Notes under the pieces: generated by a model
The model's input: the letters and a program-made list of their open reading frames with translations, nothing else
Database searches by the model: none
Told to the model about the DNA's origin: nothing
Program-made: the position numbers and the translations under genes
In this document: positions 17,759-58,479 of the stretch, piece by piece
Numbering within the stretch: the stretch's first letter is position 1
Layout: every line of letters begins with the position of its first letter
Assembly: GCA_003576695.1 (NCBI GenBank)
Contig: QOZQ01000001.1
Location: 372,001-436,000, forward strand
From: Taklimakanibacter lacteus
GTDB taxonomy: Bacteria; Pseudomonadota; Alphaproteobacteria; Rhizobiales; Aestuariivirgaceae
DNA: 64,000 nt
Direction: 5' to 3'

Positions 17759-17765
17759 GGTTTCA

Positions 17766-40963: not shown

Positions 40964-40967
40964 ATTT

Positions 40968-40983
40968 ATCCTGGCAACAGGAT
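40968..40983 (+). terminator. Hairpin after the YcaO gene
   Basis: ATCCTG, GCAA tetraloop, CAGGAT, five bases past the stop codon and between convergent genes. A stable GNRA-capped stem but without a T-run; a candidate 3' end. Confidence 0.4.
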
Positions 40984-41026
40984 GTCCACGTGGCCTTCGT
41001 TTTTGAATACCACCCTCCGATCGGGG

Positions 41027-41452: not shown

Positions 41453-41467
41453 AAGTTTCTCCTCCAG

Positions 41468-44121: not shown

Positions 44122-44976
44122 ATGAACGCCTATATCAGACCCACCAACCTAGCGGAAGCCACAAAGCTGCGGGCCAAGGCCGGCAGCAAGATCCTGTGCG
44201 GCGGCACCGATTTCTACCCGGCGCTGGGGACGGCGCAGCCCCAGGGCACGATCATCGATCTCACCCGGATTGCCGGGCTCGACGGGATCAGCGTCGGTCC
44301 GCAGGAAATCCGCATCGGCGCCTGCACCAGCTGGACGAAGCTCATCGCGAGCCCGCTGCCGCCGGCCTTCGACGCCCTCAAGGCGGCGGGCCGGGAAGTG
44401 GGGTCGATCCAGATCCAGAACCGCGCCACGATCGGCGGCAATCTGTGCAATGCATCCCCTGCCGCGGACGGGGTACCGCCCTTGCTGGCGCTCGAGGCCG
44501 AGGTCGAACTCGCCTCGGCGGAGGCCATGCGCAGGCTTGCGCTCAGCGACTTCATCCTGGGCAACCGGCGCACCGCGTTGAAGTCCGACGAGATCCTCAC
44601 CGCCATCATCGTGCCGCAGCAGCGCGCCCGGGGCAGGGCCTCCTCCACCTTTGCCAAGCTCGGCGCCCGTCATTATCTCGTGATCTCCATCGCCATGGTG
44701 GCGGTCAATCTGGTGCGCGGCGATGATGGAAGCGTTGCCGATGCGAAGATCGCGGTCGGCGCCTGCTCGGCCGTGGCGCAGCGCCTGCGCGCGCTGGAAG
44801 CCGATCTGCTTGGCAAGCCTGTGGCGGCGGAGCTTGGCCGCAGTGCCGAAGCCCGCCATCTCGCAGATCTCTCGCCCATCGATGATGTGCGCGCCACCGG
44901 AACCTACCGGCGCGACGCGGCCCTCTTGCTGGTGCGGCGCGTGATAGGCGAATGCGCCAAGGGAGCCTCGGCATGA
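44122..44976 (+). CDS. Molybdenum hydroxylase FAD subunit (CoxM/XdhA-type)
   Basis: 284 residues. FAD motifs AGSKILCGGTDFYPAL near 20-40 and RATIGGNLCNASPAADGVPPLLAL near 105-128 place it in the FAD subunit family of xanthine, nicotinate and CO dehydrogenases. It passes electrons from the iron-sulfur centres to the final acceptor. Overlaps the next subunit by ATGA. First gene of an operon of six. Confidence 0.92.
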   Translation: MNAYIRPTNLAEATKLRAKAGSKILCGGTDFYPALGTAQPQGTIIDLTRIAGLDGISVGPQEIRIGACTSWTKLIASPLPPAFDALKAAGREVGSIQIQNRATIGGNLCNASPAADGVPPLLALEAEVELASAEAMRRLALSDFILGNRRTALKSDEILTAIIVPQQRARGRASSTFAKLGARHYLVISIAMVAVNLVRGDDGSVADAKIAVGACSAVAQRLRALEADLLGKPVAAELGRSAEARHLADLSPIDDVRATGTYRRDAALLLVRRVIGECAKGASA

Positions 44977-47738
44977 CGCGCCATGAGATCATCGCCCAGG
45001 GCCATGCCGAGCTCGAATTCTCGCTGAACGGCAAGACGGTTTCGGTCACCAGCGCCCCGGCCGAGCGCCTGAGCAAGGTGGTGCGCGAGAAGCTTGCGCT
45101 GTGGGGAACCAAAGTCGGCTGCGATGCCGGCGATTGCGGCGCCTGCACGGTGCTGATCGATGGTGCGCCGGCCTGCGCCTGCCTCACCAGCGTGCAGCAG
45201 GTGGAAGGCGCCTCCGTCGTCACCATCGAAGGCCTGGCCAGCTGCACGCGGGCCGGCGAAAGCCTCAAACAGTCATTCCTCGCGCAAGGGGCGGCGCAAT
45301 GCGGCATCTGCACGCCGGGCATGCTGGTCTCGGCCGCGGCCTTGCTCGAAGAGACGCGCAAGCCCTCCGAGCAGCAGGTCATGGATGCGCTGGGCGGCGT
45401 GCTGTGCCGCTGCACCGGTTATCGCAAGATCATCTCGGCGGTGCTCGCTGCGGCCGAAGGGGTCGAGTCCATCTATGTGAGCCCGAAGATCGGCGCCGCG
45501 GTGGGTGCCCGCATCGCGCGGCTCGATGGCGTGCGAAAGGTTGACGGCAGCGAGATCTTCGGCGCCGATGCCACGCCTGCTGATGCCTTGCTGGCGCGCG
45601 CCATACGCTCGCCGCATCACCATGCGCGTTTTACGCTGGGCAATATCGATGGCTGGATCGGCGCGCATCCCGGCATATTGCGTGTGCTGACGGCGGCCGA
45701 CATTCCCAGCGTCAACCGGCATGGCGTCATCGAGCCTTTCGCCGACCAGCCGGTCTTCGCGATCGATGAAACCCGCTTCAAGGGCGAGGCGGTGGCGCTG
45801 GTGGTGGGTGAGCCTGCGGCGATCGAGAGCCTCGATCTCGGCACCTTCCCGGTGACATGGAACGAGCTGACGCCCTTGCTGACGATGGATGAGGCGCAGC
45901 AGGGCATGCTCATACATAAGGAGCGGCCGGACAATCTGCTCACCAGCGGGCGCGTGGTCAGTGGTGATGTCGACAGAGCGCTTGCCTCGGCCGCCGTCGT
46001 CGTCGAGGGCGAATTCGAAACCGGCTTTGTCGAGCACGCTTATATCGAGCCCGAGGCCGCCTGGGCACGGCGCGTCGGCGACACGGTCGAGATCCATACC
46101 TCGACCCAGGCGCCCTATATGAACCGCGACGACCTGGTGAAGATCCTGGGCCTCGCGCCCGAACAGGTGCGTATCGTGCCGACGGCAGTGGGCGGTGGCT
46201 TCGGCTCCAAGCTCGATCTGTCGCTGCAGCCTTTCGTGGCAATCGCCGCCTTCCATCTCGATCAGCCGGTGCGCATGGTCTATAGCCGCAGCGAGTCGAT
46301 CATGACCACGACCAAGCGGCATCCGGCCCGTATCCGCGCGCGGGCCGGCGTCACCCGCGAGGGCAAGCTCGTGGGCCTCGACTTCACCGGCGATTTCAAT
46401 ACCGGCGCCTATGCCTCCTTCGGCCCGACGGTCGCCAATCGCGTGCCGGTCCATGCGTCGGGTCCTTATTTCGTGCCGCATTACCGGGCGCTGGCGCGCG
46501 CCATCCACACGCATGTCGTGCCCGCCGGCGCCTTCCGCGGCTTCGGCGTGCCGCAGACGGCGATCGCCCAGGAGCAGCTTTATGACGAGCTGGCGGAACG
46601 TATCGGCATGGACCGGCTCGAATTCCGCATCCTGAATGCGCTCGATGCAAGCCAGCCGACGGTGACGGGACAAATACTGGGCGAGGGAGTGGGCATCCGC
46701 GCCTGTCTCGAGGTGCTGCGGCCACACTGGGCCCGCGCTCTGAAGGACGCAGATGATCACAATGCGAAGGCAGCGCATCTGCGCCGCGGCGTCGGCATTG
46801 CCGGCATGTGGTATGGCTGCGGCAACACTTCACTGCCCAATCCGTCGACGATCCGCGCCGGGCTCAAGCCCGACGGGCGCATCGCGCTGCATCAGGGTGC
46901 CGTCGATATCGGCCAGGGCTCCAACACCGTCATCACGCAGATCTTCGCCGATGCGCTCGGCGTGCCGATCGGCATCATCGACCGCGTCTCGGCCGATACG
47001 GCGCTGACGCCCGATTGCGGCAAGACCTCGGCGTCGCGCCAGACCTTCGTCACCGGCAAGGCGGCGGAGCTTGCGGGCCAGGCCCTCAAAGCCTCGATCC
47101 TGCGGCTCGCCAATGCGGGCGAGGGCGCCTCCTTCACGCTCGAGGACGGAAAAGCGATCATCGATGACGGCGTCATGACGCACCGGATCGAGCTCACCGG
47201 CCTCGCGCGCGACGGCTTCGGCTATGTGCTCAAGAGCGAAGAGACCTTCAACCCGCCGACCACGCCGCTCGACGAGAACGGCCAGGGCGAGCCCTATGCC
47301 GCCTATGGCTTCGGCGCGCATCTGGCCGAGATCGAGATCGATGTCGAGCTCGGCAAGGTGAAGATACGCAAGATCACAGCGGCGCATGATGTCGGGCGCG
47401 CCATCAACCCGACGCTGATCGAAGGCCAGATCGAAGGCGGCATCGCGCAAGGGCTCGGCATGGCGCTGATGGAGGAATTCCATCCGGGCCGCGGCGAAAA
47501 CCTGCATGACTATCTGATCCCGACGATCGGCGACATGCCGCTGGTCGAGACGATCCTGATCGAGGACCAGTCACCGGTCGGGCCCTTCGGCGCCAAGGGT
47601 GTGGGAGAGCAAGCCCTCATCCCGACGGCGCCCGCCATCCTCAATGCCATCCATCACGCGACGGGCATGCGCATCAGGCGCGTGCCCGCCACACCCGACC
47701 GCATCCGCGCCGCCTTGCTCAGCGCAAAGGAGACTTGA
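44973..47738 (+). CDS. Molybdenum hydroxylase, fused [2Fe-2S] and molybdopterin subunits (xanthine/nicotinate dehydrogenase family)
   Basis: 921 residues. The first 160 form the small iron-sulfur subunit with two clusters: C50, C55, C58, C70 and C110, C113, C145, C147. From about 175 the molybdopterin domain follows, with VGGGFGSKLD, GAFRGFGVPQT and the catalytic glutamate E879 in AKGVGEQAL. Most bacterial enzymes encode these as separate genes; here they are fused while FAD stays separate. Hydroxylates a carbon next to nitrogen in an aromatic ring. The neighbours suggest nicotinate or a similar pyridine rather than xanthine. ATG 44973 overlaps the FAD-subunit stop. Confidence 0.92.
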   Translation: MTRHEIIAQGHAELEFSLNGKTVSVTSAPAERLSKVVREKLALWGTKVGCDAGDCGACTVLIDGAPACACLTSVQQVEGASVVTIEGLASCTRAGESLKQSFLAQGAAQCGICTPGMLVSAAALLEETRKPSEQQVMDALGGVLCRCTGYRKIISAVLAAAEGVESIYVSPKIGAAVGARIARLDGVRKVDGSEIFGADATPADALLARAIRSPHHHARFTLGNIDGWIGAHPGILRVLTAADIPSVNRHGVIEPFADQPVFAIDETRFKGEAVALVVGEPAAIESLDLGTFPVTWNELTPLLTMDEAQQGMLIHKERPDNLLTSGRVVSGDVDRALASAAVVVEGEFETGFVEHAYIEPEAAWARRVGDTVEIHTSTQAPYMNRDDLVKILGLAPEQVRIVPTAVGGGFGSKLDLSLQPFVAIAAFHLDQPVRMVYSRSESIMTTTKRHPARIRARAGVTREGKLVGLDFTGDFNTGAYASFGPTVANRVPVHASGPYFVPHYRALARAIHTHVVPAGAFRGFGVPQTAIAQEQLYDELAERIGMDRLEFRILNALDASQPTVTGQILGEGVGIRACLEVLRPHWARALKDADDHNAKAAHLRRGVGIAGMWYGCGNTSLPNPSTIRAGLKPDGRIALHQGAVDIGQGSNTVITQIFADALGVPIGIIDRVSADTALTPDCGKTSASRQTFVTGKAAELAGQALKASILRLANAGEGASFTLEDGKAIIDDGVMTHRIELTGLARDGFGYVLKSEETFNPPTTPLDENGQGEPYAAYGFGAHLAEIEIDVELGKVKIRKITAAHDVGRAINPTLIEGQIEGGIAQGLGMALMEEFHPGRGENLHDYLIPTIGDMPLVETILIEDQSPVGPFGAKGVGEQALIPTAPAILNAIHHATGMRIRRVPATPDRIRAALLSAKET

Positions 47739-49183
47739 CCATGTCAGAGGCAGCTCTCCCGATCACGCCTCAAGCCGACAAGATCCGCTGCGATGCCTGT
47801 CCGGTGCTGTGCTACATCAAGCCCGGCAATACCGGCGCCTGCGACCGCTATGCCAATATCGAGGGGCAGTTGGTGCGGGTCGATCCGCATGTGCTGCTCG
47901 ACAAGACGATCAAGGGCGGCGGCCAGGTCATCTCCTTCCTCGGGCGCGAGAAGGACTGGGACGGCCGCATCGTCGAAAGCGCCAATACTTTCGTGACCGC
48001 GATCGGCGCCGGCACCACCTATCCCGACTATAAGCCGGCGCCTTTCATCGTCTCCTCCGAGGTCAATGGCGTCGACATGGTGACGGTCGTCACCGAGGGC
48101 ATCTTCAGCTATTGCGGCGTCAAGGTGAAGATCGACACCGACCGGCATCTGGGGCCTGAGACCGCGGCGGTGCGCGTCAATGGCGAGCAGGTGGGCCATG
48201 TCACGACGGCCGAATATGGCTCGCAGATGCTGGCGCTCGGCGGGGTTCGCCATCTGACCGGCGGCTCGAAGAAGGAAGGCCGCGTCACCTGCGATGCGCT
48301 GCTGTCGCTGTGCAACGGCAAGCCAGTCGAGATGACGGTCGATGGCGGCGTCACTCTCATCGTCGAGGCCGGCAAGCCGCCGATCATCAACGGCACACCG
48401 GAAGAGCGGATGCGGGTCGGCTGCGGCTCGGCCACCATCGGCATGTTCGCGCGCCAGTGGTTCGGGCAGATCGATGAGGTGGTGGTGGTCGATGACCACA
48501 TCACCGGCGTGCTGTCCGAGCACCAGGCCGGAAAATTCCTCGGCGTGCGCGACACCGGCATCAAGATCAAGGGCCATCGTTCGACGCCCGGGCGCTATTT
48601 CAAGGTGGCCGAGCCCGGCACCGGCTGGGGCGGCACCGATCTCAGCGATCCGCTCGCGATATTGAAGCCTTTCGACGCGAAGGAGGCGTGGCCGGGCCTG
48701 CGCATGCTGATGGTGTCGACGACCGGCGAGCACAGCGCCTATTTCGAGCTCGACGCGGAGCTGGCGCCGGTCGAGAAGGAGATGCCGGCCGGCATGCGGG
48801 CCTCGGTCGAGCGCATCAAGGAGAATTGCGAGCCGGCCCTGTCGACGGTGCTGTTCATGGGCGGCGCCGGCGGGTCGCTGCGCGCCGGGGTCACGGAAAA
48901 TCCGGTGCGCCTCACCAAGTCGGTGAAGGATTCATTCACGCGGGTGACCGCGGGCGGCGCTCCCACCTATGTGTGGCCGGGCGGCGGCATCACCTTCATG
49001 GTCGATGTGACCCTGTTGCCGGCCAATGCCTTCGGCTATGTGCCGACGCCGGCGCTCGTCGCTCCCATCGAATTCACCATGCGCCGCGACGATTATCGCC
49101 TGCTCGGCGGGCATATGGATCATGTGCGGCCTCTGTCGGAAGTCGCCCTGGCCAAGGGCAAGAAACGGGTCAACGCACCATGA
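47735..49183 (+). CDS. hnr: 6-hydroxynicotinate reductase homologue
   Basis: 482 residues. N-terminal cysteine set C19, C22, C26, C36 (CDACPVLCYIKPGNTGAC) would bind a [4Fe-4S] cluster. The whole layout, including GGGQVISFLGREKDWDGRI and GGGITFMVDVTLLPANAFGYVPTPALVAPIEFTM, corresponds to 6-hydroxynicotinate reductase, which in Eubacterium barkeri uses reduced ferredoxin to make 1,4,5,6-tetrahydro-6-oxonicotinate. Starts four bases inside the hydroxylase gene end and overlaps UPF0280 by ATGA. Identity is from recalled family resemblance plus operon context. Confidence 0.8.
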   Translation: MTMSEAALPITPQADKIRCDACPVLCYIKPGNTGACDRYANIEGQLVRVDPHVLLDKTIKGGGQVISFLGREKDWDGRIVESANTFVTAIGAGTTYPDYKPAPFIVSSEVNGVDMVTVVTEGIFSYCGVKVKIDTDRHLGPETAAVRVNGEQVGHVTTAEYGSQMLALGGVRHLTGGSKKEGRVTCDALLSLCNGKPVEMTVDGGVTLIVEAGKPPIINGTPEERMRVGCGSATIGMFARQWFGQIDEVVVVDDHITGVLSEHQAGKFLGVRDTGIKIKGHRSTPGRYFKVAEPGTGWGGTDLSDPLAILKPFDAKEAWPGLRMLMVSTTGEHSAYFELDAELAPVEKEMPAGMRASVERIKENCEPALSTVLFMGGAGGSLRAGVTENPVRLTKSVKDSFTRVTAGGAPTYVWPGGGITFMVDVTLLPANAFGYVPTPALVAPIEFTMRRDDYRLLGGHMDHVRPLSEVALAKGKKRVNAP

Positions 49184-50055
49184 CCCGCTATCAGGCGCAG
49201 CTCCTGGCCGACGGAAAGAGGTTGCATCTCCATGACGGTCCGATCGATCTGTTGATCGAGGCGAAAGGTGACGCGTCTGCTGTTCGTGCCGCTTATGGCG
49301 CGGCGGAGTTGCGCTTTGCGACGATCCTCGATGAATTGTGCGCCGAGCTTTCCCTGTTGCGTCAGGCCACGTCGGTGAGGCCGGAGGGAATTACCGCGCA
49401 GCTTATGTGGCGCGCGACGCTTCCTTTCGCGCGAGGCCGTTTCATCACGCCGATGGCGGCGGTGGCCGGCAGCGTCGCCGAGGAGATCCTTGCGGCGATG
49501 ACGGAAGCTGCTCATTTGGCTCGCGCCTATGTCAATAATGGCGGCGATATCGCGCTTCATCTGGCGCCAGGCAGCTCGTTCCGCATCGGGCTCGTCGACC
49601 GGCCCGACCAGCCCTCGCTCTTCGGCACAGCGGAGATCGGGGAAGAGGACGGCGTGCGCGGCATCGCGACCAGCGGCTGGCGCGGCCGCAGCTTCTCGCT
49701 CGGCATCGCCGATGCGGTGACCGTCCTGGCCGAGACAGCGAGCCATGCCGATGCGGCGGCGACCATCATCGCCAATGATGTCGACCTGCCCGGCCATGCG
49801 GCCATCGCGCGCGCGCGGGCTTGCGATATCCAGCCCGACAATGATCTCAAGGAGCGGGAAGTGACGCGCGGCGTCGGCGCCTTGTCGAAGGATGAGATCG
49901 ATCGCGCGCTGACGCGCGGCTGCCGGACCGCGCAGCGCCTCGTGGCAGAGGGCCTTGTTATTGCAGCCGCCCTCCACCTGCAGGGCGAGACGCGAACCGT
50001 CGGCCACTACCGGGCGCGCAACAGGGAAACAGCAAGGATAGCTATATATGCATGA
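49180..50055 (+). CDS. UPF0280 family protein
   Basis: 291 residues. YQAQLLADGKRLHLHDGPIDLLIEAKGD followed by AMTEAAHLARAYVNNGGDIALHL is the UPF0280 signature. The family has, as I recall, a fold related to ApbE flavin transferases, including an NNGGDIAL element like ApbE's; this suggests nucleotide or flavin handling, possibly flavinylation of the reductase, but that is inference. ATGA overlaps on the upstream side and an 8-base overlap with the next gene tie it into the operon. Confidence 0.85.
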   Translation: MTRYQAQLLADGKRLHLHDGPIDLLIEAKGDASAVRAAYGAAELRFATILDELCAELSLLRQATSVRPEGITAQLMWRATLPFARGRFITPMAAVAGSVAEEILAAMTEAAHLARAYVNNGGDIALHLAPGSSFRIGLVDRPDQPSLFGTAEIGEEDGVRGIATSGWRGRSFSLGIADAVTVLAETASHADAAATIIANDVDLPGHAAIARARACDIQPDNDLKEREVTRGVGALSKDEIDRALTRGCRTAQRLVAEGLVIAAALHLQGETRTVGHYRARNRETARIAIYA

Positions 50056-50632
50056 GCTGAAGATCAGGAAATTTCTCGTCTCCGTCGAAGAGATCTTCCA
50101 TGAGGGCGGGCCGGTCGCCGCCGTGCCGCAGCGGCGCGCCTCGGCTCTCGCCGTGATCGCCAATCCGTTCGCCGGCAGATATCACGAAGAAATCCAGCCT
50201 TTCATGGACGACCTGAAGCCGCTCGGGCTCGACATGGCGCGCCGGCTCATCGCGGCGCTCGGCGGCGATGCCAGGGTGGTCGAAGGCTATGGCAAGGCCG
50301 CCATCGTGGGCGAGGGCGGGGAGCTCGAGCATGGTGCGCTGTGGCATGAGCCGGGCGGCTATGCGATGCGTGAGCTCCTGGGCGGTGCGAAAGCGATCGT
50401 GCCCTCGACCAAGAAAGTGGGCGGGCCCGGCACGCGCATCGATGTGCCCGTCACCCATATCAATGCCTCCTATGTGCGCAGCCATTTCGATGCGATGGAG
50501 GTTGGTCTTCCGGACGCACCCCGCGCGAATGAGATGGTGCTGATCCTGGTGATGACCACGGGGGCGCGCGTCCATGCCCGCGCCGGCGGGCTGGCGGCCA
50601 AGGATATTGCCGGAAAGGATGGACTGAGATGA
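50048..50632 (+). CDS. AA_synth (DUF1185) family protein, paralogue 1
   Basis: 194 residues. LKIRKFLVSVEEIFHEGGPVAAVPQRRASALAVIANPFAGRY is the family start, with EGYGKAAIVGEGGELEHGALWH and PSTKKVGGPGTRIDVPVTHINASYVRSHFDAMEV following. The family was named amino-acid synthesis protein, with little biochemical support. It overlaps UPF0280 by eight bases and shares an ATGA with its own paralogue, so a hetero-oligomer is likely. Function in this pathway unknown. Confidence 0.88.
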   Translation: MHELKIRKFLVSVEEIFHEGGPVAAVPQRRASALAVIANPFAGRYHEEIQPFMDDLKPLGLDMARRLIAALGGDARVVEGYGKAAIVGEGGELEHGALWHEPGGYAMRELLGGAKAIVPSTKKVGGPGTRIDVPVTHINASYVRSHFDAMEVGLPDAPRANEMVLILVMTTGARVHARAGGLAAKDIAGKDGLR

Positions 50633-51213
50633 AAGCCAGGATTCGGAAAATCGTCACCTTCGTGGATGAGACGCTGAGCGAGCAGGGCAAGGCGGTGACA
50701 CCACCCATACGCCGCGCGGCCGCGGTGGCGGTGATCGAGAATCCCTTTGCCGGCAGGTATCAGGAAGACCTGAGCCTGCTCATCGATGTCGGCGAGGAGT
50801 TGGGTGGCCTTCTGGCCGAGCGCGCTGTCGCCGCATTGGGGATACCGGGCGCCAGCGTGGAGAGCTATGGCAAGGCGGCGGCTGTCGGCGAGAATGGCGA
50901 GCTTGAGCATGCGGCAGCGATCCTCCATCCCAAGCTCGGCACACCTTTCCGCAAGGTGCTGGGCAAAGGTGCGGCGCTCATCCCGTCATCGAAGAAGCGC
51001 GGCCCCATGGGGGTCGTGCTCGATGTGCCGCTCGGCCACAAGGATGCCGCCTATGTGCGCAGCCATTTCGACGGCATGGAAGTCAGGGTCAATGACGCGC
51101 CGCGCGCCAATGAGATCATGGTGGCGGTTGCCGTCACCTCGGGTGGACGCCCGCTGCCGCGCGTCGGCGGGTTGAAGACGTCGGAGATCAAGGGCGAGGA
51201 CGGGTTGCGGTAG
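50629..51213 (+). CDS. AA_synth (DUF1185) family protein, paralogue 2
   Basis: 194 residues, same length as paralogue 1 and alignable end to end: IRKIVTFVDETLSEQGKAVTPPIRRAAAVAVIENPFAGRYQEDL, ESYGKAAAVGENGELEHAAA, PSSKKRGPMGVVLDVPLGHKDAAYVRSHFDGMEV. Last gene of the hydroxylase operon. Differences concentrate in the middle (ILHPKLGTPFRKVLGKGAALI against LWHEPGGYAMRELLGGAKAIV), which may mark two different binding roles. Confidence 0.88.
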   Translation: MKARIRKIVTFVDETLSEQGKAVTPPIRRAAAVAVIENPFAGRYQEDLSLLIDVGEELGGLLAERAVAALGIPGASVESYGKAAAVGENGELEHAAAILHPKLGTPFRKVLGKGAALIPSSKKRGPMGVVLDVPLGHKDAAYVRSHFDGMEVRVNDAPRANEIMVAVAVTSGGRPLPRVGGLKTSEIKGEDGLR

Positions 51214-51242
51214 AGCGCAGTCCCCCGCACGCAACCCCAGTT

Positions 51243-51344
51243 CGTCATCCCGGCGAAAGCCGGGATCCATTGCGATCTCACCTCACGATCGGCGTTGATC
51301 GCGTTGCGCGAATTTAATGGGTCCCGGCTTTCGCCGGGATGACG
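51243..51344. repeat. Dispersed ~100-bp palindromic repeat, copy 3
   Basis: 23-bp perfect terminal inverted repeats (51243-51265 and 51322-51344). It separates the convergent AA_synth and enamidase genes, where it can end transcription from both sides. Confidence 0.9.
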
Positions 51345-51354
51345 GTTTTGGGGG

Positions 51355-52554
51355 TCACGCCTTCTCGATCGTCGGAATCCGTTTCGCCGGCGGCGTGTTG
51401 CGGCTGCGCTGGCAGCGCACCAGGCCGTCGATGATCACCATGCCGATGCCGGGCAGGTCGCCGAGCCTTATGCTGTCGAGCAAGGTCTCGCCGGCCGAAT
51501 GCTGGGCGGTATCCATCAGCACGAAATCGGCCGCACGGCCGGTCTCGATCAATCCGCAGTCGAGCTTGCGCATGCGCGCGGTGTTGCCGGTGGCGAGGCA
51601 GATGGCCTGTTCCGCCGGCAGGTCGCCCAAAGCGGACAGCATGGAGATCATGCGCAATATGCCGAGCGGCTGCACGCCGGAGCCTGCCGGCGCATCGGTG
51701 CCTAAGATCACGCGCTCGAGCTGCTTCATCTCGGTCGCGGCGCGCAGCGCATAAAGCGCGGCGCGCTCATTGCCATTGTGCACGATCTCGAGGCCGCGCT
51801 TGCAGCCCTCGCAGATGCAGCGGATCTGCGTGTCGGGCAGCGCCGTGTGGCCGCCATTGATATGGCCCACCACATCGGTGTCGGCTTCGAGCACCACATC
51901 CTTGTCGATGAGGCCCGAGCCCGGAATGGACGGGCCGCCGGTATGGATGGTGCTCTGGATGCCGTATTTGCGCGCCCAGGCCACCATGCGGCGCGCCGTC
52001 GGGCCGTCCTTGACGCCGCCGAGCCCCACTTCGCCCAGAAGCTTCACGCCGGCTTCCGCCAGGTCCTTGAAATCCTGCTCCGTCATCTCGGGCTCGATGC
52101 AGGGTGCCCCGGCATGGACCTTGACGCCGGACGGCCTGAAATTGGCGAACTGGCGTTGCGCCGAGATGGCGAGCGCCTTGAGGCCGATCACATCGCGCGG
52201 CCGGCCCGGCGTGTGCACCTCGCCCGCCGAGATCATGGTGGTGATGCCGCCATTGAGATTGCTGTCGATCCAGCCGAGCTGGTTCTGGCGCGGCGTCCAG
52301 TCGCCCGCCACCGGATGCACATGGCTGTCGATAAGCCCCGGCGCAAGTGCGCAGCCCTTGGCATCGATGATCACCGTCGCTCCTTCGGCATCGATGTCCC
52401 TGGCGCGGCCGATCTGCGTGATCCTGCCGTCGACCGCCGCGATCGTATCGGCATCGAGGATGGGATTCTCGAGAGCGCCCGACAGGACAAGGCCGATATT
52501 GCGGATGACGGTCTTCCGGGGACCAGCGGCAGGGGTGGCGGCCTCATGGGACAT
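51355..52554 (-). CDS. ena: Enamidase-like amidohydrolase
   Basis: 399 residues. Metal ligands of the amidohydrolase barrel: H78/H80 (DSHVH), E175 (GEVGLG), H204 (IHTGG), H231 (GHINGG) and D287 (GTDAPAG). Segments such as GGITTMISAGEVHTPGRPRD, FRPSGVKVHAGA and the tail SRNTPPAKR closely resemble E. barkeri enamidase as I remember it; that enzyme opens the 1,4,5,6-tetrahydro-6-oxonicotinate ring to 2-formylglutarate and ammonia. The gene is transcribed towards the hydroxylase operon and divergently from the MarR gene. Strong candidate for the third step of the same pathway. Confidence 0.85.
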   Translation of the reverse strand: MSHEAATPAAGPRKTVIRNIGLVLSGALENPILDADTIAAVDGRITQIGRARDIDAEGATVIIDAKGCALAPGLIDSHVHPVAGDWTPRQNQLGWIDSNLNGGITTMISAGEVHTPGRPRDVIGLKALAISAQRQFANFRPSGVKVHAGAPCIEPEMTEQDFKDLAEAGVKLLGEVGLGGVKDGPTARRMVAWARKYGIQSTIHTGGPSIPGSGLIDKDVVLEADTDVVGHINGGHTALPDTQIRCICEGCKRGLEIVHNGNERAALYALRAATEMKQLERVILGTDAPAGSGVQPLGILRMISMLSALGDLPAEQAICLATGNTARMRKLDCGLIETGRAADFVLMDTAQHSAGETLLDSIRLGDLPGIGMVIIDGLVRCQRSRNTPPAKRIPTIEKA

Positions 52555-52581
52555 GTTCGTCTCCTCTTGTCAGAATGAATA

Positions 52582-52593
52582 TTTGTAGGCAAA
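52582..52593. promoter_or_regulatory. Operator candidate TTTGTAGGCAAA
   Basis: Near-palindrome between the divergent enamidase and MarR genes, identical to the fpr-side site (43987) except for the two central bases, which break the GTATAC core. Would allow the MarR protein to regulate its own gene and enamidase. Confidence 0.5.
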
Positions 52594-52642
52594 CAATAGG
52601 GAAGGAGCAAGCACCTGCTGTCCTGCTTGAGAGAACCCGACG

Positions 52643-53113
52643 ATGACATCGCGCAAACCGGCACCATCGCGCCAGGGCGGCAATGGCCGCAAGCCGGACG
52701 ATGATGATTATGTGCTCGACAGCCAGGTCGGCTTCATCCTGAGGCAAGTAAGCCAGCGCCATGCGGTGATCTTCGACGAGCTGATCGGCGAGGGCGTCAC
52801 GCCGACGCAATGGGCGGCGCTGTCCAAGCTCCAGGAGATCGGCCCCACGTCGCAGAACCTGCTCGGCCGGCTCACCTCCATGGATGCGGCGACCATCAAG
52901 GGCGTGGTGCTGAGGCTCGGCAAGCGCCAGCTGGTGGAGACCAATCCCGATCCCGGCGATGCGCGAAGGCTCGTGGTGCGGCTGACCGAGCAGGGCAGGC
53001 GGCTCACCCGGAAGCTCACGCCGCGCGCCGCCGCCATCAGCCAGGTGACGATGGCGCCTTTGACGCCCGAGGAGCAGACGCGGCTGCTGGCGCTGCTGAC
53101 GAAGCTGCGGTGA
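52643..53113 (+). CDS. MarR-family transcriptional regulator of the heterocycle cluster
   Basis: 156 residues. The winged helix spans GEGVTPTQWAALSKLQEIGPTSQNLLGRLTSMDAATIKGVVLRLGKRQLVE and the wing ends DARRLVVRLTEQGRRL. It is closest in style to MarR proteins that control aromatic or heterocycle catabolism. Divergent from enamidase; the putative operator at 52582 lies between. The most plausible local regulator of the whole 43-58 kb block. Confidence 0.88.
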   Translation: MTSRKPAPSRQGGNGRKPDDDDYVLDSQVGFILRQVSQRHAVIFDELIGEGVTPTQWAALSKLQEIGPTSQNLLGRLTSMDAATIKGVVLRLGKRQLVETNPDPGDARRLVVRLTEQGRRLTRKLTPRAAAISQVTMAPLTPEEQTRLLALLTKLR

Positions 53114-53123
53114 CCCGATCGTA

Positions 53124-53178
53124 TCCTCTCCCTCACCGCGGAGCGGGGAGGGTACGCCCGAAGGGCGGGGGTGGGGTC
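53124..53178 (+). repeat. Inverted repeat, left copy, flanking the DUF559 gene
   Basis: A GC-rich element (CTCTCCCTCACC...GCGGGGAGGGT...GGGTGGGGTC) whose inverted homologue is at 53602-53653. Both ends point the GTGGGGTC edge towards the gene between them. Confidence 0.75.
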
Positions 53179-53234
53179 TTTCCCCTATGCACCTAGCCTA
53201 GTAACGTTCGCGCGCAGTCAGGATGGAGCAATCC

Positions 53235-53591
53235 ATGGACGACCGTATCGCCTTCGCTCGTTCGCTTCGAAAACGCATGACTCCAGAAGAAGTGAAACTC
53301 TGGGTAAGATTGAGGACATGGCGCAGCAAGGGTTATCACTTTCGTAGGCAAGCGCCGATCGACGGTTACGTCCTGGATTTCGTCTGCAAGACGCACAAGC
53401 TGATCGTCGAAGTCGACGGTAGTCAGCATGGTGAAGACCATGGTTCGGCACATGACGCAAAACGAGATGCGCATTTCCGCGCCAAAGGCTATCGCGTTGC
53501 GCGCTTATGGAATGCCGATGTTAATAGCGATCCTGATGCCGCTGCCGATACAATCTGGGCATTTCTGCAAGGAGAAAATCCCTTCGCATAA
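53235..53591 (+). CDS. DUF559 endonuclease-like protein (Vsr/restriction fold)
   Basis: 118 residues. SLRKRMTPEEVKLWVRLRTWRSKGYHFRRQAPIDGYVLDFVC then KLIVEVDGSQH gives the D...ExD...H set of the Vsr/PD-(D/E)XK-type DUF559 fold. ATG 53235 (GGAG eight bases upstream) is preferred to 53223. The protein is probably a small nuclease. It is a lone gene between the inverted repeat copies at 53124 and 53602, dropped between MarR and the ABC operon; it has no obvious metabolic link to them. Confidence 0.85.
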   Translation: MDDRIAFARSLRKRMTPEEVKLWVRLRTWRSKGYHFRRQAPIDGYVLDFVCKTHKLIVEVDGSQHGEDHGSAHDAKRDAHFRAKGYRVARLWNADVNSDPDAAADTIWAFLQGENPFA

Positions 53592-53601
53592 GTGCGGCGG
53601 C

Positions 53602-53653
53602 GTGACCCCACCCGACGCTTCGCGCCACCCTCCCCGCCATGCGGGGAGGGAGA
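53602..53653 (-). repeat. Inverted repeat, right copy, flanking the DUF559 gene
   Basis: Reverse complement of the 53124 element with about one fifth of positions changed (GACCCCACCCGACGCTTCGCG then CCCTCCCCGC...GCGGGGAGGG). The pair is placed symmetrically around the DUF559 gene. Confidence 0.75.
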
Positions 53654-53672
53654 TTCTGACGGGTAACGAGCT

Positions 53673-54374
53673 TCAGCGATGCACGCCGATATAGCGTTCG
53701 AGCGGCACCGGATTGGCGGCGAGCTCGCTGGCTTTGGCCTCATGCTGGATGACGCCGTTCTCGATCAGCAGGATGCGATCGCAGATGCGCAGAGCGGATT
53801 TGACCTGCTGCTCGACCAGCAGGATGGCGACGCCCGACTGGCGCAATTGCGCCACGGTGTCGAGGATGCGATGGGTCACCGCCGGGAACAGGCCCTCGCT
53901 CGGCTCGTCGAGCAGCAGCACTTTCGGCTTGGTGCATAAAGCCCGCGCCACCGCCAGCATCTGCTGCTCGCCCCCCGACAATGTGCCGGCGGCCTGCGCC
54001 AACCGCTCGCGCAATATGGGAAAGAGATCGAGCACCGGCTCGGCATCGCTTTGCGGCGCGTTATTGACCAGCAATCCCATGCGCAGATTCTCGGCCACGG
54101 TCAGCTCGCTGAACAACCGGCGGCCCTGCGGGACATAGGCGATGCCACGCGCCGGGACGGCATGCGGCGGCAGATGGGAAATCTCCTCAGCAGCGATCTT
54201 CAGCGATCCCCGCCGCTTCGGGATGAGGCCCATGATGGTCTTAAGTATCGTCGTCTTGCCGGCGCCGTTGCGGCCCATGACGCCCAGGATCTCGCCCGCG
54301 GCGAGGGTGAAAGAGATCTCCTTCAGGACCTCCACCGCGCCATAGGCGCTCGATATGCGGGTGAGCTCGAGCAT
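53673..54374 (-). CDS. livF: Branched-chain-type ABC transporter ATPase LivF
   Basis: 233 residues. Walker A GRNGAGKTT near 36-44, signature LSGGEQQMLAVARAL, Walker B LLLDEPSEGL and the LivF ending NPVPLERYIG. One-base overlap with livG. Last gene of the importer operon for the heterocycle block. Confidence 0.93.
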   Translation of the reverse strand: MLELTRISSAYGAVEVLKEISFTLAAGEILGVMGRNGAGKTTILKTIMGLIPKRRGSLKIAAEEISHLPPHAVPARGIAYVPQGRRLFSELTVAENLRMGLLVNNAPQSDAEPVLDLFPILRERLAQAAGTLSGGEQQMLAVARALCTKPKVLLLDEPSEGLFPAVTHRILDTVAQLRQSGVAILLVEQQVKSALRICDRILLIENGVIQHEAKASELAANPVPLERYIGVHR

Positions 54375-55108
54375 CAGTCCCCCAGATAGGCCTGCTGCAC
54401 CGCCGGGTGCCTCTCGATCTCGGCGGGCGTGCCTTCGGCGAGGATAGCGCCCCGGTCCATGACGGTGATCCGGTCGGCGAGGTCGAGGACGACCTTGAGA
54501 TTGTGCTCGATGAAAAGGATGGTCGAGGTCTTTGCCGTCCTGCGGATGAGATCGCAGAAGGGCTGGATGTCGCCGGGCGCCAGGCCCTGCGTCGGCTCGT
54601 CCAGCACCAGCAGAGACGGCTTGAGCGCCAGGCCCATGGCGAGCTCGAGCAGGCGTTGATGGCCATAGGGCAGCACGCCCGCCAGGCGATCCGCCTCGTT
54701 GTTGAGGCCCACCGCCGACAGGGCCTCATCGATCGCGGCATCGAGGGCATCAGGGGAGAGCGACAGATGAAGACCGGGCTTCGCCGTCAGCCGGCGCTGG
54801 ACAGCCAGCGCCACATTCTCGCGCAGAGTGAGCTTGGGATAGATGCTGGTGATCTGGAACGTATAGACGATGCCGCGCATCACCCGTTTCCACGGACTCA
54901 TATTGGTGATGTCATGGTCCTCGAAGAAGACGGCGCCACCGCTCGGCGGGATGCGGCCGCAGATCATGCTGACGAAAGTGGTCTTGCCGGCGCCATTGGG
55001 GCCGATGATGCTGCGGATCTCGCCCTGCTCGAGGCGGAAGGAGACATCGTTCACCGCCGTCACGCCGCCATAGCGCCGGCTCAGGCCCCTGGTCTCGAGC
55101 AGCGTCAT
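54374..55108 (-). CDS. livG: Branched-chain-type ABC transporter ATPase LivG
   Basis: 244 residues. Walker A GPNGAGKTT near 37-45, the long LivG helix region FQITSIYPKLTLRENVALAVQRR, Walker B LLVLDEPTQGLAPGD. ATGA overlap with livM upstream. Confidence 0.93.
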   Translation of the reverse strand: MTLLETRGLSRRYGGVTAVNDVSFRLEQGEIRSIIGPNGAGKTTFVSMICGRIPPSGGAVFFEDHDITNMSPWKRVMRGIVYTFQITSIYPKLTLRENVALAVQRRLTAKPGLHLSLSPDALDAAIDEALSAVGLNNEADRLAGVLPYGHQRLLELAMGLALKPSLLVLDEPTQGLAPGDIQPFCDLIRRTAKTSTILFIEHNLKVVLDLADRITVMDRGAILAEGTPAEIERHPAVQQAYLGD

Positions 55109-56058
55109 GCGGGCTTCCTCCTGAGGAAGCGGCGCACCCAGCCGCCGATGCCCTCCGGGAACCAGAGCGTGATGACGAGCAGCGCTGCGCCTACGATGAT
55201 CATGTAGCTCGAGGTGAAGCTGCTCGATATGTCGATGAGGTAATACATGATCGCCGTGCCGGCGAGCGGGCCCAGCGTCACGCCGGTGCCGCCGAGCAAG
55301 GTGTAGAGCAGCGGCAGTGTCGAATATTGCAGCGAGGCGAAGGAGGCGCCGACATAGGCGAAGAGAAGGCAGTAGAGGGCGCCCGAGAGCCCCGACAGGG
55401 TGCCCGAGATCACCAGCGCCCAGAAGCGATAGAGAAAGGTGTTGTAGCCGAGGAGCTTCGTGCGCGCCTCGTTCTCGCGCACCGCGATCAGGATGCGGCC
55501 GAAGGGCGAGCGCAAGAGCCAGAGGCTGAAGAGGAGCGCGAAGGCGAAGGCGGCAAGCGCCACATTATATTTCACCGACGGGTCGGAGAGCGCGAAGGAA
55601 AGCCCGGCCATCTCGATCGGGCGCAGCGACAGCACGATGCCCTGGTCGCCCAGCGTGATGGTGTTGAAATACAAGGTGGCGAGGAACGCCGCCTGCGCCA
55701 GCATCAAGGTGACGATGAGAAAGGCGACGCCGCTCACCCTGAGGACCACGATACCCGCCAGCAGCGAGACGACGAAGGCGGAAGCCACACCCGCCAGCAG
55801 CGCCGCGATCGGGCCGAAGCCCAGCCAGTAGACGGAGAGGCCCGCGCCATAGGCGCCGGCGGCGAAGAACATCGCATGGCCGAGGCTCATCAGGCCGGTA
55901 TAGCCGAAGAGGATATTGTAGCCGATCGCCAGCACCGCATAGACCATGATGCGGGTGAAGGTGCCGATGTGATAGGCGGGCAGCACATATTGCAGGAGGA
56001 AGAGGGCCGCGATGACGGCAATATGAAATGCGTAAGATCTGAACGCCGCCTGTCTCAT
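55105..56058 (-). CDS. livM: Branched-chain-type ABC transporter permease LivM
   Basis: 317 residues, about nine helices. YNILFGYTGLMSLGHAMFFAAGAYGA and GRILIAVRENEARTKLLGYNTFLYR are LivM signatures. Start ATG 56058 in an ATGA overlap with livH; the much longer open frame upstream is only a frame shadow of livH. Confidence 0.93.
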   Translation of the reverse strand: MRQAAFRSYAFHIAVIAALFLLQYVLPAYHIGTFTRIMVYAVLAIGYNILFGYTGLMSLGHAMFFAAGAYGAGLSVYWLGFGPIAALLAGVASAFVVSLLAGIVVLRVSGVAFLIVTLMLAQAAFLATLYFNTITLGDQGIVLSLRPIEMAGLSFALSDPSVKYNVALAAFAFALLFSLWLLRSPFGRILIAVRENEARTKLLGYNTFLYRFWALVISGTLSGLSGALYCLLFAYVGASFASLQYSTLPLLYTLLGGTGVTLGPLAGTAIMYYLIDISSSFTSSYMIIVGAALLVITLWFPEGIGGWVRRFLRRKPA

Positions 56059-56939
56059 GGGGCGCTCTCGCGCATGAGGCCGCCCGGTCTGGCGATGAGG
56101 ACGAGCGCCACCAGAAGTGTCGCGATCATCTTGGCGAGAGTGGGCGAGAACAGGACCGCGATCATGCCTTCGCCGATGCCGATAAGGGCCGCGGCCAGCA
56201 AGGTGCCGCGCAGATTTCCCAAGCCCCCGACAATGACGACGATGAAGGAGAGCAGCAGCGGATCGGCGCCCATGAGGTAATGCGCCTGCTGGATGGGGGC
56301 GATCAGCACGCCCGAGACCGCGGCCAGCATGGCGCCCAGCGCGAAAACCGAGGCATAGACGCGCCTGACCGGCACGCCGAAGGCCTGGGCGGTTTCGGCA
56401 TCGAGCCTTGTGGCGCGCATGTAGAGGCCGATGCGGCTCTTCGACAGGATCAGCCAGGTGATGCCGAGCAGCAGCAGCGCCAGCGCGATGACGATGAGCT
56501 TGTAGCCGGAATAGCCGAACCAGGGCAGCTGGATGCGGAAATAGACGGGCGGCTCGATCGGCCGCGCATCCGGACCATAGGTCATCAGCACGCTCTGCTG
56601 GATGACATAGAGCAGGCCCATTGTGGCGACGATGGTGCGCTCGGGATCGTAGTTGATGCGACGCAGCACCAGCCAGTCGGCGGCCATGGCGATGAGGCCG
56701 ACGACGACCGGCGCCATCACGAGGGCGAGCAGGAAGCCCAGGGCCGGATGGGCGCCCAGCAACTCCGCCGAGCACCACCAGACGATGATGGCGCCCAGCA
56801 TGACGAATTCGCCATGGGCGATGTTGATCACCCGCATGACGCCAAAGACGAGCGACAGGCCGAGCGCTGTCAGCGCCAGGACAGCGGCGCCGACCGCGCC
56901 TTCCATCAAGGCGAGGAGGAGGGCAGGGCCGGTGATCAT
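56055..56939 (-). CDS. livH: Branched-chain-type ABC transporter permease LivH
   Basis: 294 residues, about eight helices; LVFGVMRVINIAHGEFVMLGA near 30-50 is the LivH signature, and RATRLDAETAQAFGVPVRRVYASVFALG the coupling loop. Similar proteins import leucine, urea or aromatic acids. Separated from the binding-protein gene by repeat copy 4. Confidence 0.93.
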   Translation of the reverse strand: MITGPALLLALMEGAVGAAVLALTALGLSLVFGVMRVINIAHGEFVMLGAIIVWWCSAELLGAHPALGFLLALVMAPVVVGLIAMAADWLVLRRINYDPERTIVATMGLLYVIQQSVLMTYGPDARPIEPPVYFRIQLPWFGYSGYKLIVIALALLLLGITWLILSKSRIGLYMRATRLDAETAQAFGVPVRRVYASVFALGAMLAAVSGVLIAPIQQAHYLMGADPLLLSFIVVIVGGLGNLRGTLLAAALIGIGEGMIAVLFSPTLAKMIATLLVALVLIARPGGLMRESAP

Positions 56940-56990
56940 CGTGGAAACGGAACCATGATTCTAGACACGCGATCCGCCCCGATCCTTTTC

Positions 56991-57089
56991 CGTCATCCCG
57001 GCGAAAGCCGGGACCCATTAAATTTGCCGTAGCGAGCAGCGCCGCCCAGATTGCACTTTTTCAGGGGGCCCGGCTTTCGCCGGATGACG
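56991..57089. repeat. Dispersed ~100-bp palindromic repeat, copy 4
   Basis: Terminal inverted repeats 56991-57013 and about 57068-57089, the right arm lacking one G. Unlike the other three copies it lies between co-directional genes, livK and livH, so it may lower permease expression relative to the binding protein. Confidence 0.88.
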
Positions 57090-57100
57090 AAAGTGGGCTA

Positions 57101-58393
57101 TCACAGGGCCTGCGTCGTGTAATCCGCCTTCGGCTCGTAGAGTCCGTCCTCGATGGACGTGGTGTGCACCACTTTCAGCTTGCCGCCTTCGACCTGGGAG
57201 ATGAACTGCCGGCCGAAGCACTGATGCGCCTTGCCGATGAATTTCTTCTCGCCCTGCGGATGCTCCTTGCCTTCGGCGAAGGAGGTGATCGCCTCGACGG
57301 TCTCGATGAAAGTCTTGCGGTCGGACGCCCCCTTGTAGCCCGACGCCTCGACGGCCTGCTTGATCGAGAACAGGGTCTCCCAGCAGCCGAACATGTGCGA
57401 ATTGGTCGAGACTTCCTTGGCGTTGTCCTTGTTGGCGCCGTTCTCGTCGAGGCCGACGGCGTCGCGGTAGAATTTGGCGCCTTCAGTGTCGAGGCCGGAG
57501 AGATAGCGCGGGAAGGCCTCCCACAGATGCGAGCCTTCGAGGAATTCGAGGCCGGGCGAGGCGATGGCGACCGCTTCGAGCGAGTCGATGAAGCCGAAAA
57601 GCTTCGGTCCCTTGGTGCCGAAGAACTCGCCGAGCTCGCGCACGAAAGTGAGCACGCCCGGGCCCACCATCACATGATAGATGGCGTCGGTATCAGGCGG
57701 GATCTGCGAGAAATATTTGGTGAAGCTGGTCTCGGTCGGCGGGATGGCGATGACCGCCTTGACCTCGCCGCCCTCAGCCTTGGCGGCCTCGGTGAAGAAG
57801 TCGCGGTGATTATATCCGAAGATATAATCCGGGATGATCATCGTGACCTTCTTGCCGACATTGCCGATGACGAAGGGCGATATCGCCTTGACCTGCGAGC
57901 GCACATTGGTGATGCCGGTCTGGAACACATAGCGGTTGAACTGGCCGTCGGCGAGCTCGCTGCCCTCGCTGACGATGAAGAGCGGCATCTTCAGGTCGGC
58001 GGCGCGCGCGGCGGAAGCGCCGACGACATGGCCGAAAAGCGGACCGAAGACGAAATCGACATTATGCTGGGTGGCGAATTTCTCCATCACCTCGCCGGCG
58101 CGCTTGGCATCGGTGGCATCATCCTCGACGATGAGCTCGACCGGACGCCCGGCAATGCCGCCCATGTCGTTGATCACCTTGACGGCGGCGACGCTGGTGC
58201 GCTCATACCAATAGCCATAGGCGGCGCCGATGCCGGTGCGGTGCGCCTGCAGGCCGATCTTGAGCGGATCACCGGCGGCATAGGCTGATCTTGGAAACTG
58301 GCCCGCCAGAGCGAGGCCGGACAAGGCGCCGGCACCGGCGAGAATTTGACGGCGAGACAAGGAAACAGGGTTGCCTGTTTTGCGGGCACTCAT
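57101..58393 (-). CDS. Branched-chain-type ABC transporter substrate-binding protein (Tat-exported)
   Basis: 430 residues. Twin-arginine motif SLSRRQILAGAGA at residues 11-23 and a hydrophobic stretch ending near SAYAA. Periplasmic-binding fold type I (LivK/AmiC-like): IGLQAHRTGIGAAYGYWYERTSVAAVKVINDMGGIAGRPVEL. ATG 58393 has GGGAGGC seven bases upstream. Expected to capture the compound degraded by the adjacent hydroxylase pathway. A GTATAC-centred site is 40-50 bases upstream. Confidence 0.92.
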   Translation of the reverse strand: MSARKTGNPVSLSRRQILAGAGALSGLALAGQFPRSAYAAGDPLKIGLQAHRTGIGAAYGYWYERTSVAAVKVINDMGGIAGRPVELIVEDDATDAKRAGEVMEKFATQHNVDFVFGPLFGHVVGASAARAADLKMPLFIVSEGSELADGQFNRYVFQTGITNVRSQVKAISPFVIGNVGKKVTMIIPDYIFGYNHRDFFTEAAKAEGGEVKAVIAIPPTETSFTKYFSQIPPDTDAIYHVMVGPGVLTFVRELGEFFGTKGPKLFGFIDSLEAVAIASPGLEFLEGSHLWEAFPRYLSGLDTEGAKFYRDAVGLDENGANKDNAKEVSTNSHMFGCWETLFSIKQAVEASGYKGASDRKTFIETVEAITSFAEGKEHPQGEKKFIGKAHQCFGRQFISQVEGGKLKVVHTTSIEDGLYEPKADYTTQAL

Positions 58394-58434
58394 GGACGCC
58401 TCCCTAGAGACGATGTTGGTTATCTCGTTGATTG

Positions 58435-58446
58435 TTGGTATACACA
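58435..58446. promoter_or_regulatory. Operator candidate TTGGTATACACA
   Basis: GTATAC core (58438-58443) with partial outer symmetry, 42 bases upstream of the livK-type start. Matches the core of the sites at 43987 and 44078. Confidence 0.45.
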
Positions 58447-58479
58447 TAGTTTCATTCGCAGGTCAAGAAGAGGTGTGAC

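Follow-up and report, generated by a model that had tools for sequence, protein, structure and literature searches.

A probable nicotinate catabolic cluster of the Azorhizobium/Bradyrhizobiaceae type in Taklimakanibacter lacteus, and the conserved proteins that accompany 6-hydroxynicotinate reductase

Which compound do the genes at 44122-58447 of a 64,000-nt stretch of Taklimakanibacter lacteus DNA (the window) break down, and by which route? A preliminary description had placed in this block a molybdenum (Mo) hydroxylase, homologues of 6-hydroxynicotinate reductase (Hnr) and enamidase, a MarR regulator and a Liv-type importer, and all of them were found there; beyond that list we found a UPF0280 protein, two PF06684 proteins (50048-51213) and a ferredoxin-NADP+ reductase (FNR). 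From sequence comparisons we read the block, at a probability of about 0.88, as a cluster for nicotinate catabolism of the Azorhizobium/Bradyrhizobiaceae type, which proceeds via 1,4,5,6-tetrahydro-6-oxonicotinate (THON), in a variant with a soluble dehydrogenase. Very probably the cluster lets an oxygen-using bacterium use nicotinate (vitamin B3) by a route first found in a fermenter. We consider the nicotinate reading well supported because the C-terminal half of the Mo subunit is most similar to nicotinate dehydrogenase (NDH), the MarR protein keeps three of the four ligand contacts of BpsR, and the probable operator also occurs in Bradyrhizobium clusters.

When the fused Mo subunit was searched at full length with phmmer, the top match was the Desulfovibrio aldehyde oxidoreductase (381.2 bits), which also has the fused layout, and chains A, B and D of NDH (3hrd) scored 244.2, 217.7 and 122.6 bits over successive parts of the protein. 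Residues 600-928 alone matched 3hrd_B, from the NDH of Eubacterium barkeri, best (220.8 bits), with 4-hydroxybenzoyl-CoA reductase (158.3 bits) and xanthine dehydrogenases (at most 87.5 bits) as runners-up. Y621 aligns with Tyr13 of 3hrd_B, which we take to lie near the substrate, and the surrounding motif MWYGxGNTxLPNP is retained, with GNTSLPNP in the window and GNTGLPNP in 3hrd_B. Based on this homology, the FAD/Fe-S/Mo enzyme is proposed to be a nicotinate 6-hydroxylase. The enamidase homologue had a single strong match in the PDB, 2vun (ENAMIDASE, 369.5 bits), the next one reaching 36.8 bits (E 2.6e-8); a dihydroorotase-type amidohydrolase was considered for this gene and rejected on the difference between these scores. 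H78, H80, E175, H204, H231 and D287, presumably the metal ligands as in the amidohydrolase family, are identical in 48/48 sequences (the window and 47 of the 80 loci defined below). With these two matches, and with Hnr in a cluster of the type described in excerpts of PMC3511419, the nicotinate upper-pathway enzymology of the preliminary description is supported, and the xanthine dehydrogenase and dihydroorotase outcomes that it had named for a comparison with characterised enzymes did not occur.

The regulator is in keeping with this reading. The closest PDB entry to the MarR protein is 2nnn, followed by BpsR (6pcp), which according to excerpts of PMC6837509 contacts 6-hydroxynicotinate via Tyr15, His23, Arg26 and His32. 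The equivalent residues in the window are Y23, F31, R34 and H40, and Y23, R34 and H40 are invariant in 57/57 sequences (the window and 56 loci, filtered at >=45% identity). As a control, among 30 MarR-family loci of the host genome 15 open reading frames (ORFs) matched the MarR profile, one of them being that of the window; the Y-R-H combination occurred in 0/14 of the others, for which the alignments are unreliable. We predict that this MarR protein responds to 6-hydroxynicotinate.

A candidate binding sequence for MarR is CGTTTGTATACAAACG. The pattern TTTGN4CAAA occurs at two sites in the 64 kb (43987 and 52582; 0.28 expected), both in the two divergent control regions of the cluster; two or more sites, wherever placed, were seen in 4/100 shuffles. 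A related palindrome, TATGTATACATA, lies at 44078. In the 80 loci, 56 of the 63 TTTGN4CAAA sites are within 300 bp upstream of a cluster gene, where 7.7 would be expected, and CGTTTG[TC]NNNCAAACG is present in 34/80 loci, the operator-positive loci being mostly related Bradyrhizobium. A promoter-like sequence of the FNR gene (44025-43998) touches the first operator, and such sites were no commoner than chance in the scan. Promoter and terminator scans carry little weight because their counts were near chance expectation (2 promoter-like sites versus 2.6 expected; 10 terminator-like sites versus 7.4 expected).

We also compared the surroundings of Hnr in other genomes. Hnr homologues were present in 17/60 relatives and in 53/337 genomes of the class (the genome labelled G000 is included in both). 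A search across named genomes yielded at least 479 confirmed Hnr places, of which the best 80 were analysed ('the 80 loci'); many are from Bradyrhizobium and are not independent. UPF0280 was detected around Hnr in 78 of these, the second PF06684 protein (AAS2) in 72, MarR in 56, LivF, LivG and the permease in 54 each, enamidase in 49, the first PF06684 protein (AAS1) in 36, FNR in 34 and the binding protein in 18; these are detection counts, since many loci end early and a single label covers related importers or PF06684 paralogues. Because Hnr occurs in 53 of the 337 genomes and the same genes recur around it in the 80 loci, the grouping is not due to chance. The Hnr proteins are 64-91% identical to that of the window among relatives and class genomes (91% in the genus mate G004) and 68-81% identical in the 80 loci. 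The Hnr homologue of the window is identified through its neighbours and its published relatives. It had no Pfam match over the cut-off (GCV_T_C, 18 bits; cut-off 25.9), no NCBIfam match and no PDB relative in a sequence search (best E 0.096).

The hydroxylase next to Hnr varies. Among the 80 loci, 30 have the Mo type of the window, 43 a NicB-cytochrome c type (its domain make-up taken from a Pfam scan of the Bradyrhizobium japonicum locus L068), one has an isoquinoline-oxidoreductase-like pair, in 6 none was detected, and the two main types never occur together. Different hydroxylases thus seem to feed the Hnr core, and this supports the view that the enzyme of the window hydroxylates nicotinate at position 6. 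L052 (10001-18595) combines an Hnr 79% identical to that of the window with two isoquinoline-oxidoreductase-like Mo proteins, FNR and MarR.

Some further observations on Hnr were made. Its N-terminus (gene 47735-49183) carries the motif CxxCPxxCxI...GxC, which to us resembles the N-terminus of AmmeMemoRadiSam-type radical SAM proteins. One genome encodes the homologue as two adjacent matches with a four-base overlap (G087:C1:2969823-2971210), either a natural fission or a frameshift. Contigs titled as acidobacterial metagenome-assembled genomes (MAGs; L073, L076, L078, L085, L089, L102, L123 and L128) carry the same cluster with Hnr 72-76% identical, which reflects either transfer or mis-binned contigs.

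Hnr/UPF0280/Ndh clusters without a close enamidase were seen in L175-L192 and in a Ferrovibrio MAG (L120); 13/19 have HyuA, a member of the ATP-dependent hydantoinase/lactamase family. We compared 32 picked loci, not a random sample (18 without a close enamidase in the genome, 2 with one, 11 from the 80 loci, and the window). Enamidase was present in 8 (including a partial gene in L124), HyuA in 13, HyuB in 8, enamidase together with HyuA in 0 and neither enamidase nor HyuA in 11; the last may have an enamidase elsewhere in the genome, as L194 does. Of the 39 rows in an Hnr tree, 18 formed a clade with support 100/100, made up of 11 HyuA rows and 7 rows labelled as having neither gene (one of them L124, which does carry an enamidase). 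The window fell in a set of 15 rows (97/96), which also takes in the five NicB rows without exception and half of the ten enamidase rows. The HyuA label required 7 changes on this tree versus a shuffled mean of 10.4 (as low in 5/500 shuffles), and the enamidase label 5 versus 8.9 (0/500). Both labels are clustered and neither is a single clade; the HyuA row L182, on a long branch, falls outside. In 25 Mo sequences, the LPNP motif was found in 8, and each of these 8 is accompanied by an enamidase homologue of 52-100% identity, located in the locus itself or, in the case of L194, elsewhere in the genome; the other 17 have S or A for the proline, and 16 of these 17 lack an enamidase in the locus, the exception being L124. 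In 18 loci of the enamidase-poor kind the palindromic operator was not seen, and any TTTG[TC]NNNCAAA site was found in 4/18.

The best NCBIfam models for HyuA and HyuB are caprolactamase subunits (506 and 346.1 bits, below the cut-off of 1000), and ATP-dependent lactam opening is likely in the HyuA/HyuB loci for this reason. Many members of the sister clade would therefore open the ring differently from the enamidase clusters, and the HyuA/HyuB clusters probably represent an alphaproteobacterial variant or sister pathway not described before; in the open-access literature searched, nothing was found on hydantoinase together with 6-hydroxynicotinate. L124 (Pelagibius marinus, 6200-21392) has an Hnr of the sister clade and the Mo motif MSNP, yet carries AAS2 and an enamidase (71% over 145 residues, cut by the end of the stretch). 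Because L124 mixes these features, the sister-clade reading is weakened, and another substrate for that clade is a tentative possibility.

If the block does serve nicotinate, the Liv-type importer would bring nicotinate in, the FAD/2Fe-2S/Mo enzyme would hydroxylate it to 6-hydroxynicotinate and Hnr would reduce this to THON, perhaps with ferredoxin electrons recharged by FNR. The enamidase, by its strong homology, would then open the ring and release ammonia to give 2-formylglutarate, which would be decarboxylated and oxidised to glutarate, converted to glutaryl-CoA and oxidised. MarR would repress from the palindromic operators and be released on binding 6-hydroxynicotinate, UPF0280 would install the flavin of Hnr, and AAS2 would act with the enamidase or just after it. 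Uptake of nicotinate by the importer is probable. In L097, L112, L117 and L193 an operator-like site lies just upstream of the binding-protein gene of a related importer (58-65% identity of the binding protein where close), so that in these loci the importer is probably in the regulon; in the 64-kb scan no TTTGN4CAAA was seen upstream of the window's own binding-protein gene. FNR, which had one match in its own genome at E<=0.001, is a possible source of reduced ferredoxin for Hnr.

The E. barkeri lower pathway comprises hydroxymethylglutarate dehydrogenase, methyleneglutarate mutase and dimethylmalate lyase, and the glutarate route consists of decarboxylation, oxidation and activation to glutaryl-CoA. 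The preliminary description had stated that the former was not visible, and that the product must go elsewhere or the substrate differ. None of its families was found in a Pfam scan that covered part of the ORFs in 37185-63745 and no other part of the genome, and processing of THON via glutarate is given in excerpts of PMC3511419; this part of the statement stands, while another substrate is unlikely here. L053 (Kaistia) and L191 each encode, within ~6.5 kb of Hnr, an acyl-CoA dehydrogenase together with a CoA-transferase. The host genome has homologues of both (acyl-CoA dehydrogenase, 66%, C7:12830-13999; CoA-transferase, 58%, C18:300001-301149), and ten ORFs scanned around the former included no other obvious pathway gene. 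These candidates fit a glutarate route and do not prove it.

Several observations weigh against the nicotinate reading or parts of it. At the position of the remaining BpsR contact (His23), 56/57 MarR sequences have Phe. TTTG[TC]NNNCAAA is absent from 34/80 loci, so that the operator is not universal, and L055, L076, L106, L126 and L129 lack it with a window-type hydroxylase and an enamidase present. The CoA-transferases of L053 and L191 resemble succinate-glutarate CoA-transferase below the cut-off (580 and 511.1 bits; cut-off 750), and for their acyl-CoA dehydrogenases a FadE model is best, slightly ahead of or nearly level with glutaryl-CoA dehydrogenase, which comes second or third, all below the NCBIfam cut-offs. 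The host homologues are unlinked to the cluster and belong to large families. The AlphaFold model of Hnr is poor (pLDDT 61.9), and Foldseek found no PDB match for it with E<=0.001. The E. barkeri Hnr has three clusters, for all of which the 8 conserved Cys (7 invariant and 1 nearly invariant in 37 Hnr sequences) are too few.

We believe that degradation of another N-heterocycle (a pyridine carboxylate, pyridone or pyrimidine) by the same chemistry is improbable for this locus. Such a reading draws on the 18-row sister clade: because it is mostly without enamidase and often has HyuA/HyuB, and because the palindromic operator was not seen in 18 loci of that kind, enzymes of the Hnr family may act on several substrates. 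The window lies outside that clade, however, its Mo subunit has the LPNP version of the motif that 3hrd_B has and that goes with enamidase, and 6-hydroxynicotinate is indicated by the enamidase, by the MarR contacts and by the operator alike. Still less probable is a xanthine or aldehyde dehydrogenase identity for the Mo enzyme, with Hnr and enamidase beside it by accident. The full-length match to aldehyde oxidoreductase speaks for it, as does the best NCBIfam model, Se-dependent XDH (566.6 bits, below the cut-off of 830.45). We rejected this candidate since the full-length scores reflect the fused layout and the C-terminal half clearly prefers NDH; moreover, there is a four-base overlap with hnr, and the same type adjoins hnr in the 30 loci counted above. 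That the cluster is a relic or non-functional is hardly credible: the reading frames are open, the proteins are well conserved, Hnr is retained in the same genus (G004), and nothing was found in favour of decay.

The UPF0280 protein belongs to NF003322 (390.5 bits, cut-off 290) and remains below the cut-off for the ApbE family PF02424 (19.9 bits, cut-off 25.6). UPF0280 (E<1e-10) and Hnr occur in the identical 53 of the 337 class genomes, and UPF0280 in 0 of the other 284, two weak hits in genomes without Hnr being left out (G158, 3.8e-5; G365, 7.4e-4); among the 80 loci, L052 and L113 are exceptions with no UPF0280 in the stretch examined. Its AlphaFold model is confident (pLDDT 92.6), and of 35 Foldseek matches in the PDB with E<=0.001, 33 were ApbE/Ftp/FmnB flavin transferases and 2 the DUF375 structure 2o34. 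The likeness to ApbE had E 2.5e-7 in Foldseek and 1.6e-6 in hhalign. A profile alignment with five ApbE proteins gave GGD, ATSG and AD...T as shared motifs, which are invariant or nearly so in 39 UPF0280 sequences, with S165 and D191, the equivalents of the catalytic Ser and Asp, invariant. No PF02424 ApbE was found in the host genome. The E. barkeri Hnr contains a covalent flavin. Because UPF0280 and Hnr share the same genomes, the fold is that of ApbE, the host lacks a detected PF02424 ApbE and a covalent flavin is present in the E. barkeri enzyme, we propose that UPF0280 attaches or installs the flavin of Hnr, as a transferase or insertase.

Two points speak against the standard flavinylation mechanism. 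In the profile alignment, 18 residues that in ApbE include the catalytic His are missing from UPF0280, and no conserved canonical flavinylation motif was found in Hnr, the Thr of GSAT being Ala in L029 and L042. Both favour the view that UPF0280 is not a flavin transferase but a flavin/FAD-binding chaperone or structural partner of Hnr, the more so as excerpts of PMC12052999 give Ser241, His257 and Asp285 as the catalytic residues of ApbE, with the His as the proposed general base. On the other hand, the remaining ApbE motifs are conserved, the host has no detected ApbE of its own, and His257Gly lowers the activity of ApbE and does not abolish it (same excerpts). We regard the chaperone or partner role as a serious possibility, somewhat short of an even chance. 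Our composite proposal, in which UPF0280 of the NF003322 type is a cytosolic ApbE-like Hnr flavinylase without the His loop or a canonical target and, more tentatively, AAS2 is a partner of enamidase and the sister clade exchanges enamidase for an ATP-dependent lactamase of the hydantoinase type, perhaps to use another N-heterocycle, is itself tentative and rather doubtful as a whole. If true, this UPF0280 subtype would gain a function and the source of the covalent flavin in Hnr would be explained. The open-access literature searched yielded no mention of UPF0280 and nothing on ApbE together with 6-hydroxynicotinate.

AAS2 is very close to the solved structure of SPO0826 (2qtp). AAS2 (>=65% identity) and enamidase (>=68%) are found in the same 23/337 genomes, including one in which Hnr was not detected (G141); these cut-offs were set after the lists had been seen. 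In three further genomes an AAS protein of 57-63% occurs without a close enamidase, one of which, G163, has an enamidase of 42%. Since both share the same 23 genomes, AAS2 is probably a partner of the enamidase step and would act with or just after it, possibly as a 2-formylglutarate decarboxylase. A close enamidase is present in 22/53 Hnr genomes and any PF06684 hit in 46/53; the family also occurs in 20 genomes without Hnr and consequently has other uses too. Excerpts of PMC2954203 tie PF06684 to amino-acid metabolism via its fold and adjacent branched-chain amino-acid transporter genes, a link that may mislead because in many loci here such importers belong to nicotinate-type clusters. Apart from this, G141 has the close enamidase and AAS2 without an Hnr hit, and G256 and G349 of the same genus have Hnr.

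The features are collected in the table. Neighbouring plus-strand genes from the FAD subunit to AAS2 overlap by a few bases each and thus look like one operon; the MarR gene is divergent from the enamidase gene, and the AAS2 and enamidase genes are convergent. For FNR, the start MSNFVEE at 43965 is probably the true one, which leaves an intergenic space that holds the operator.

Table. Genes and probable operators of the cluster (positions in the window)
Feature	Position	Strand	Basis or remark
Ferredoxin-NADP+ reductase (FNR)	43192..43965 (ORF opens at 44088)	-	NF008178, 147.1 bits, below cut-off 390
Probable MarR operator TTTGTATACAAA	43987..43998		Between divergent FNR and NdhF genes
FAD subunit, NdhF-like, of NDH-type hydroxylase	44122..44976	+	PF00941 3.5e-41; PF03450 3.2e-15
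Fused [2Fe-2S] and molybdopterin subunit (NdhS+NdhL+NdhM in one chain)	44952..47738	+	PF01799, PF02738, PF20256
6-Hydroxynicotinate reductase homologue (Hnr)	47735..49183	+	Homologues, gene neighbourhood, published clusters
UPF0280 protein, ApbE fold	49180..50055	+	NF003322
PF06684 'AA_synth' protein 1 (AAS1)	50048..50632	+	PF06684 8.1e-72
PF06684 'AA_synth' protein 2 (AAS2)	50629..51213	+	2qtp (SPO0826) E 1.6e-85
Enamidase homologue	51355..52554	-	2vun E 2.3e-109
Second probable MarR operator TTTGTAGGCAAA	52582..52593		Between divergent enamidase and MarR genes
MarR regulator, BpsR-like	52643..53113	+	2nnn 2.5e-37; BpsR 6pcp 6e-21
DUF559/MTES_1575 nuclease-like gene	53223-53591		Between MarR and importer; probably unrelated
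Liv-type ABC importer	53673..58447	-	LivF 53673-54374; LivG 54374-55108; fused permease 55105-57018; binding protein 57101-58447

Other features of the window were also observed. Upstream of the cluster, an animal-haem-peroxidase-like protein (PF03098) is encoded at 41468-43024 (-), and 39686-41920 holds a YcaO cyclodehydratase gene and, after it, a 312-aa ORF that matches no Pfam family, a possible peptide-modification locus. The sequence CCCGGCGAAAGCCGGG occurs in four exact copies, at 9383, 14698, 51249 and 56997, and once with two changes at 33093; the copy at 51249 sits between the convergent AAS2 and enamidase genes.

How does the cluster compare with known systems? The nicotinate fermentation cluster of E. 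barkeri, reportedly described by Alhapel in 2006, has NDH, Hnr and enamidase chemistry in common with the window, and NDH and enamidase are clearly homologous; the window differs in having the Mo and Fe-S parts in one chain and in its MarR/Liv/FNR/UPF0280 setting. The Pseudomonas/Bordetella nic (maleamate) pathway is not known to have an Hnr or enamidase step. It shares with the window 6-hydroxynicotinate as the first product and a related regulator, BpsR, and differs in that its ring is cleaved oxidatively, as stated in excerpts of PMC9304392. UPF0280 has the fold and core motifs of the ApbE flavin transferases (PF02424), which unlike it possess the His-containing loop, and it falls below the cut-off of their family.

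The closest systems are those of aerobic Alphaproteobacteria. According to excerpts of PMC3511419 (2012), E. barkeri is where the conversion of 6-hydroxynicotinate to THON was discovered, and the aerobe Azorhizobium was afterwards reported to carry out this reduction as well (1989/1992 work cited). The excerpts mention a homologue at 42% identity in the context of this reduction and describe the cluster in Azorhizobium caulinodans, Bradyrhizobium, Rhodopseudomonas palustris HaA2 and Bradyrhizobiaceae SG-6C, where it encodes the first three steps along with an ABC transporter and two conserved proteins of unknown function. The same ring opening is given for E. barkeri and Azorhizobium in excerpts of PMC9304392. 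The aerobic re-use of the fermentation pathway, whose novelty the preliminary description had implied, had thus been published, and our central claim is not new. The Bradyrhizobium THON loci resemble the window in MarR, FNR, UPF0280 and the probable operator; their hydroxylase is of the NicB type (Mo/cytochrome c) and their single PF06684 protein is of the AAS2 type, whereas the window combines the FAD/Fe-S/Mo enzyme with two PF06684 proteins and another Liv importer. Taken alone, the cluster is a further example of the published aerobic route, and its value lies in the comparison, in which the co-occurrence of UPF0280 with Hnr and of AAS2 with enamidase, the sister clade with its HyuA/HyuB members, and two hydroxylase types on one core appear to be new.

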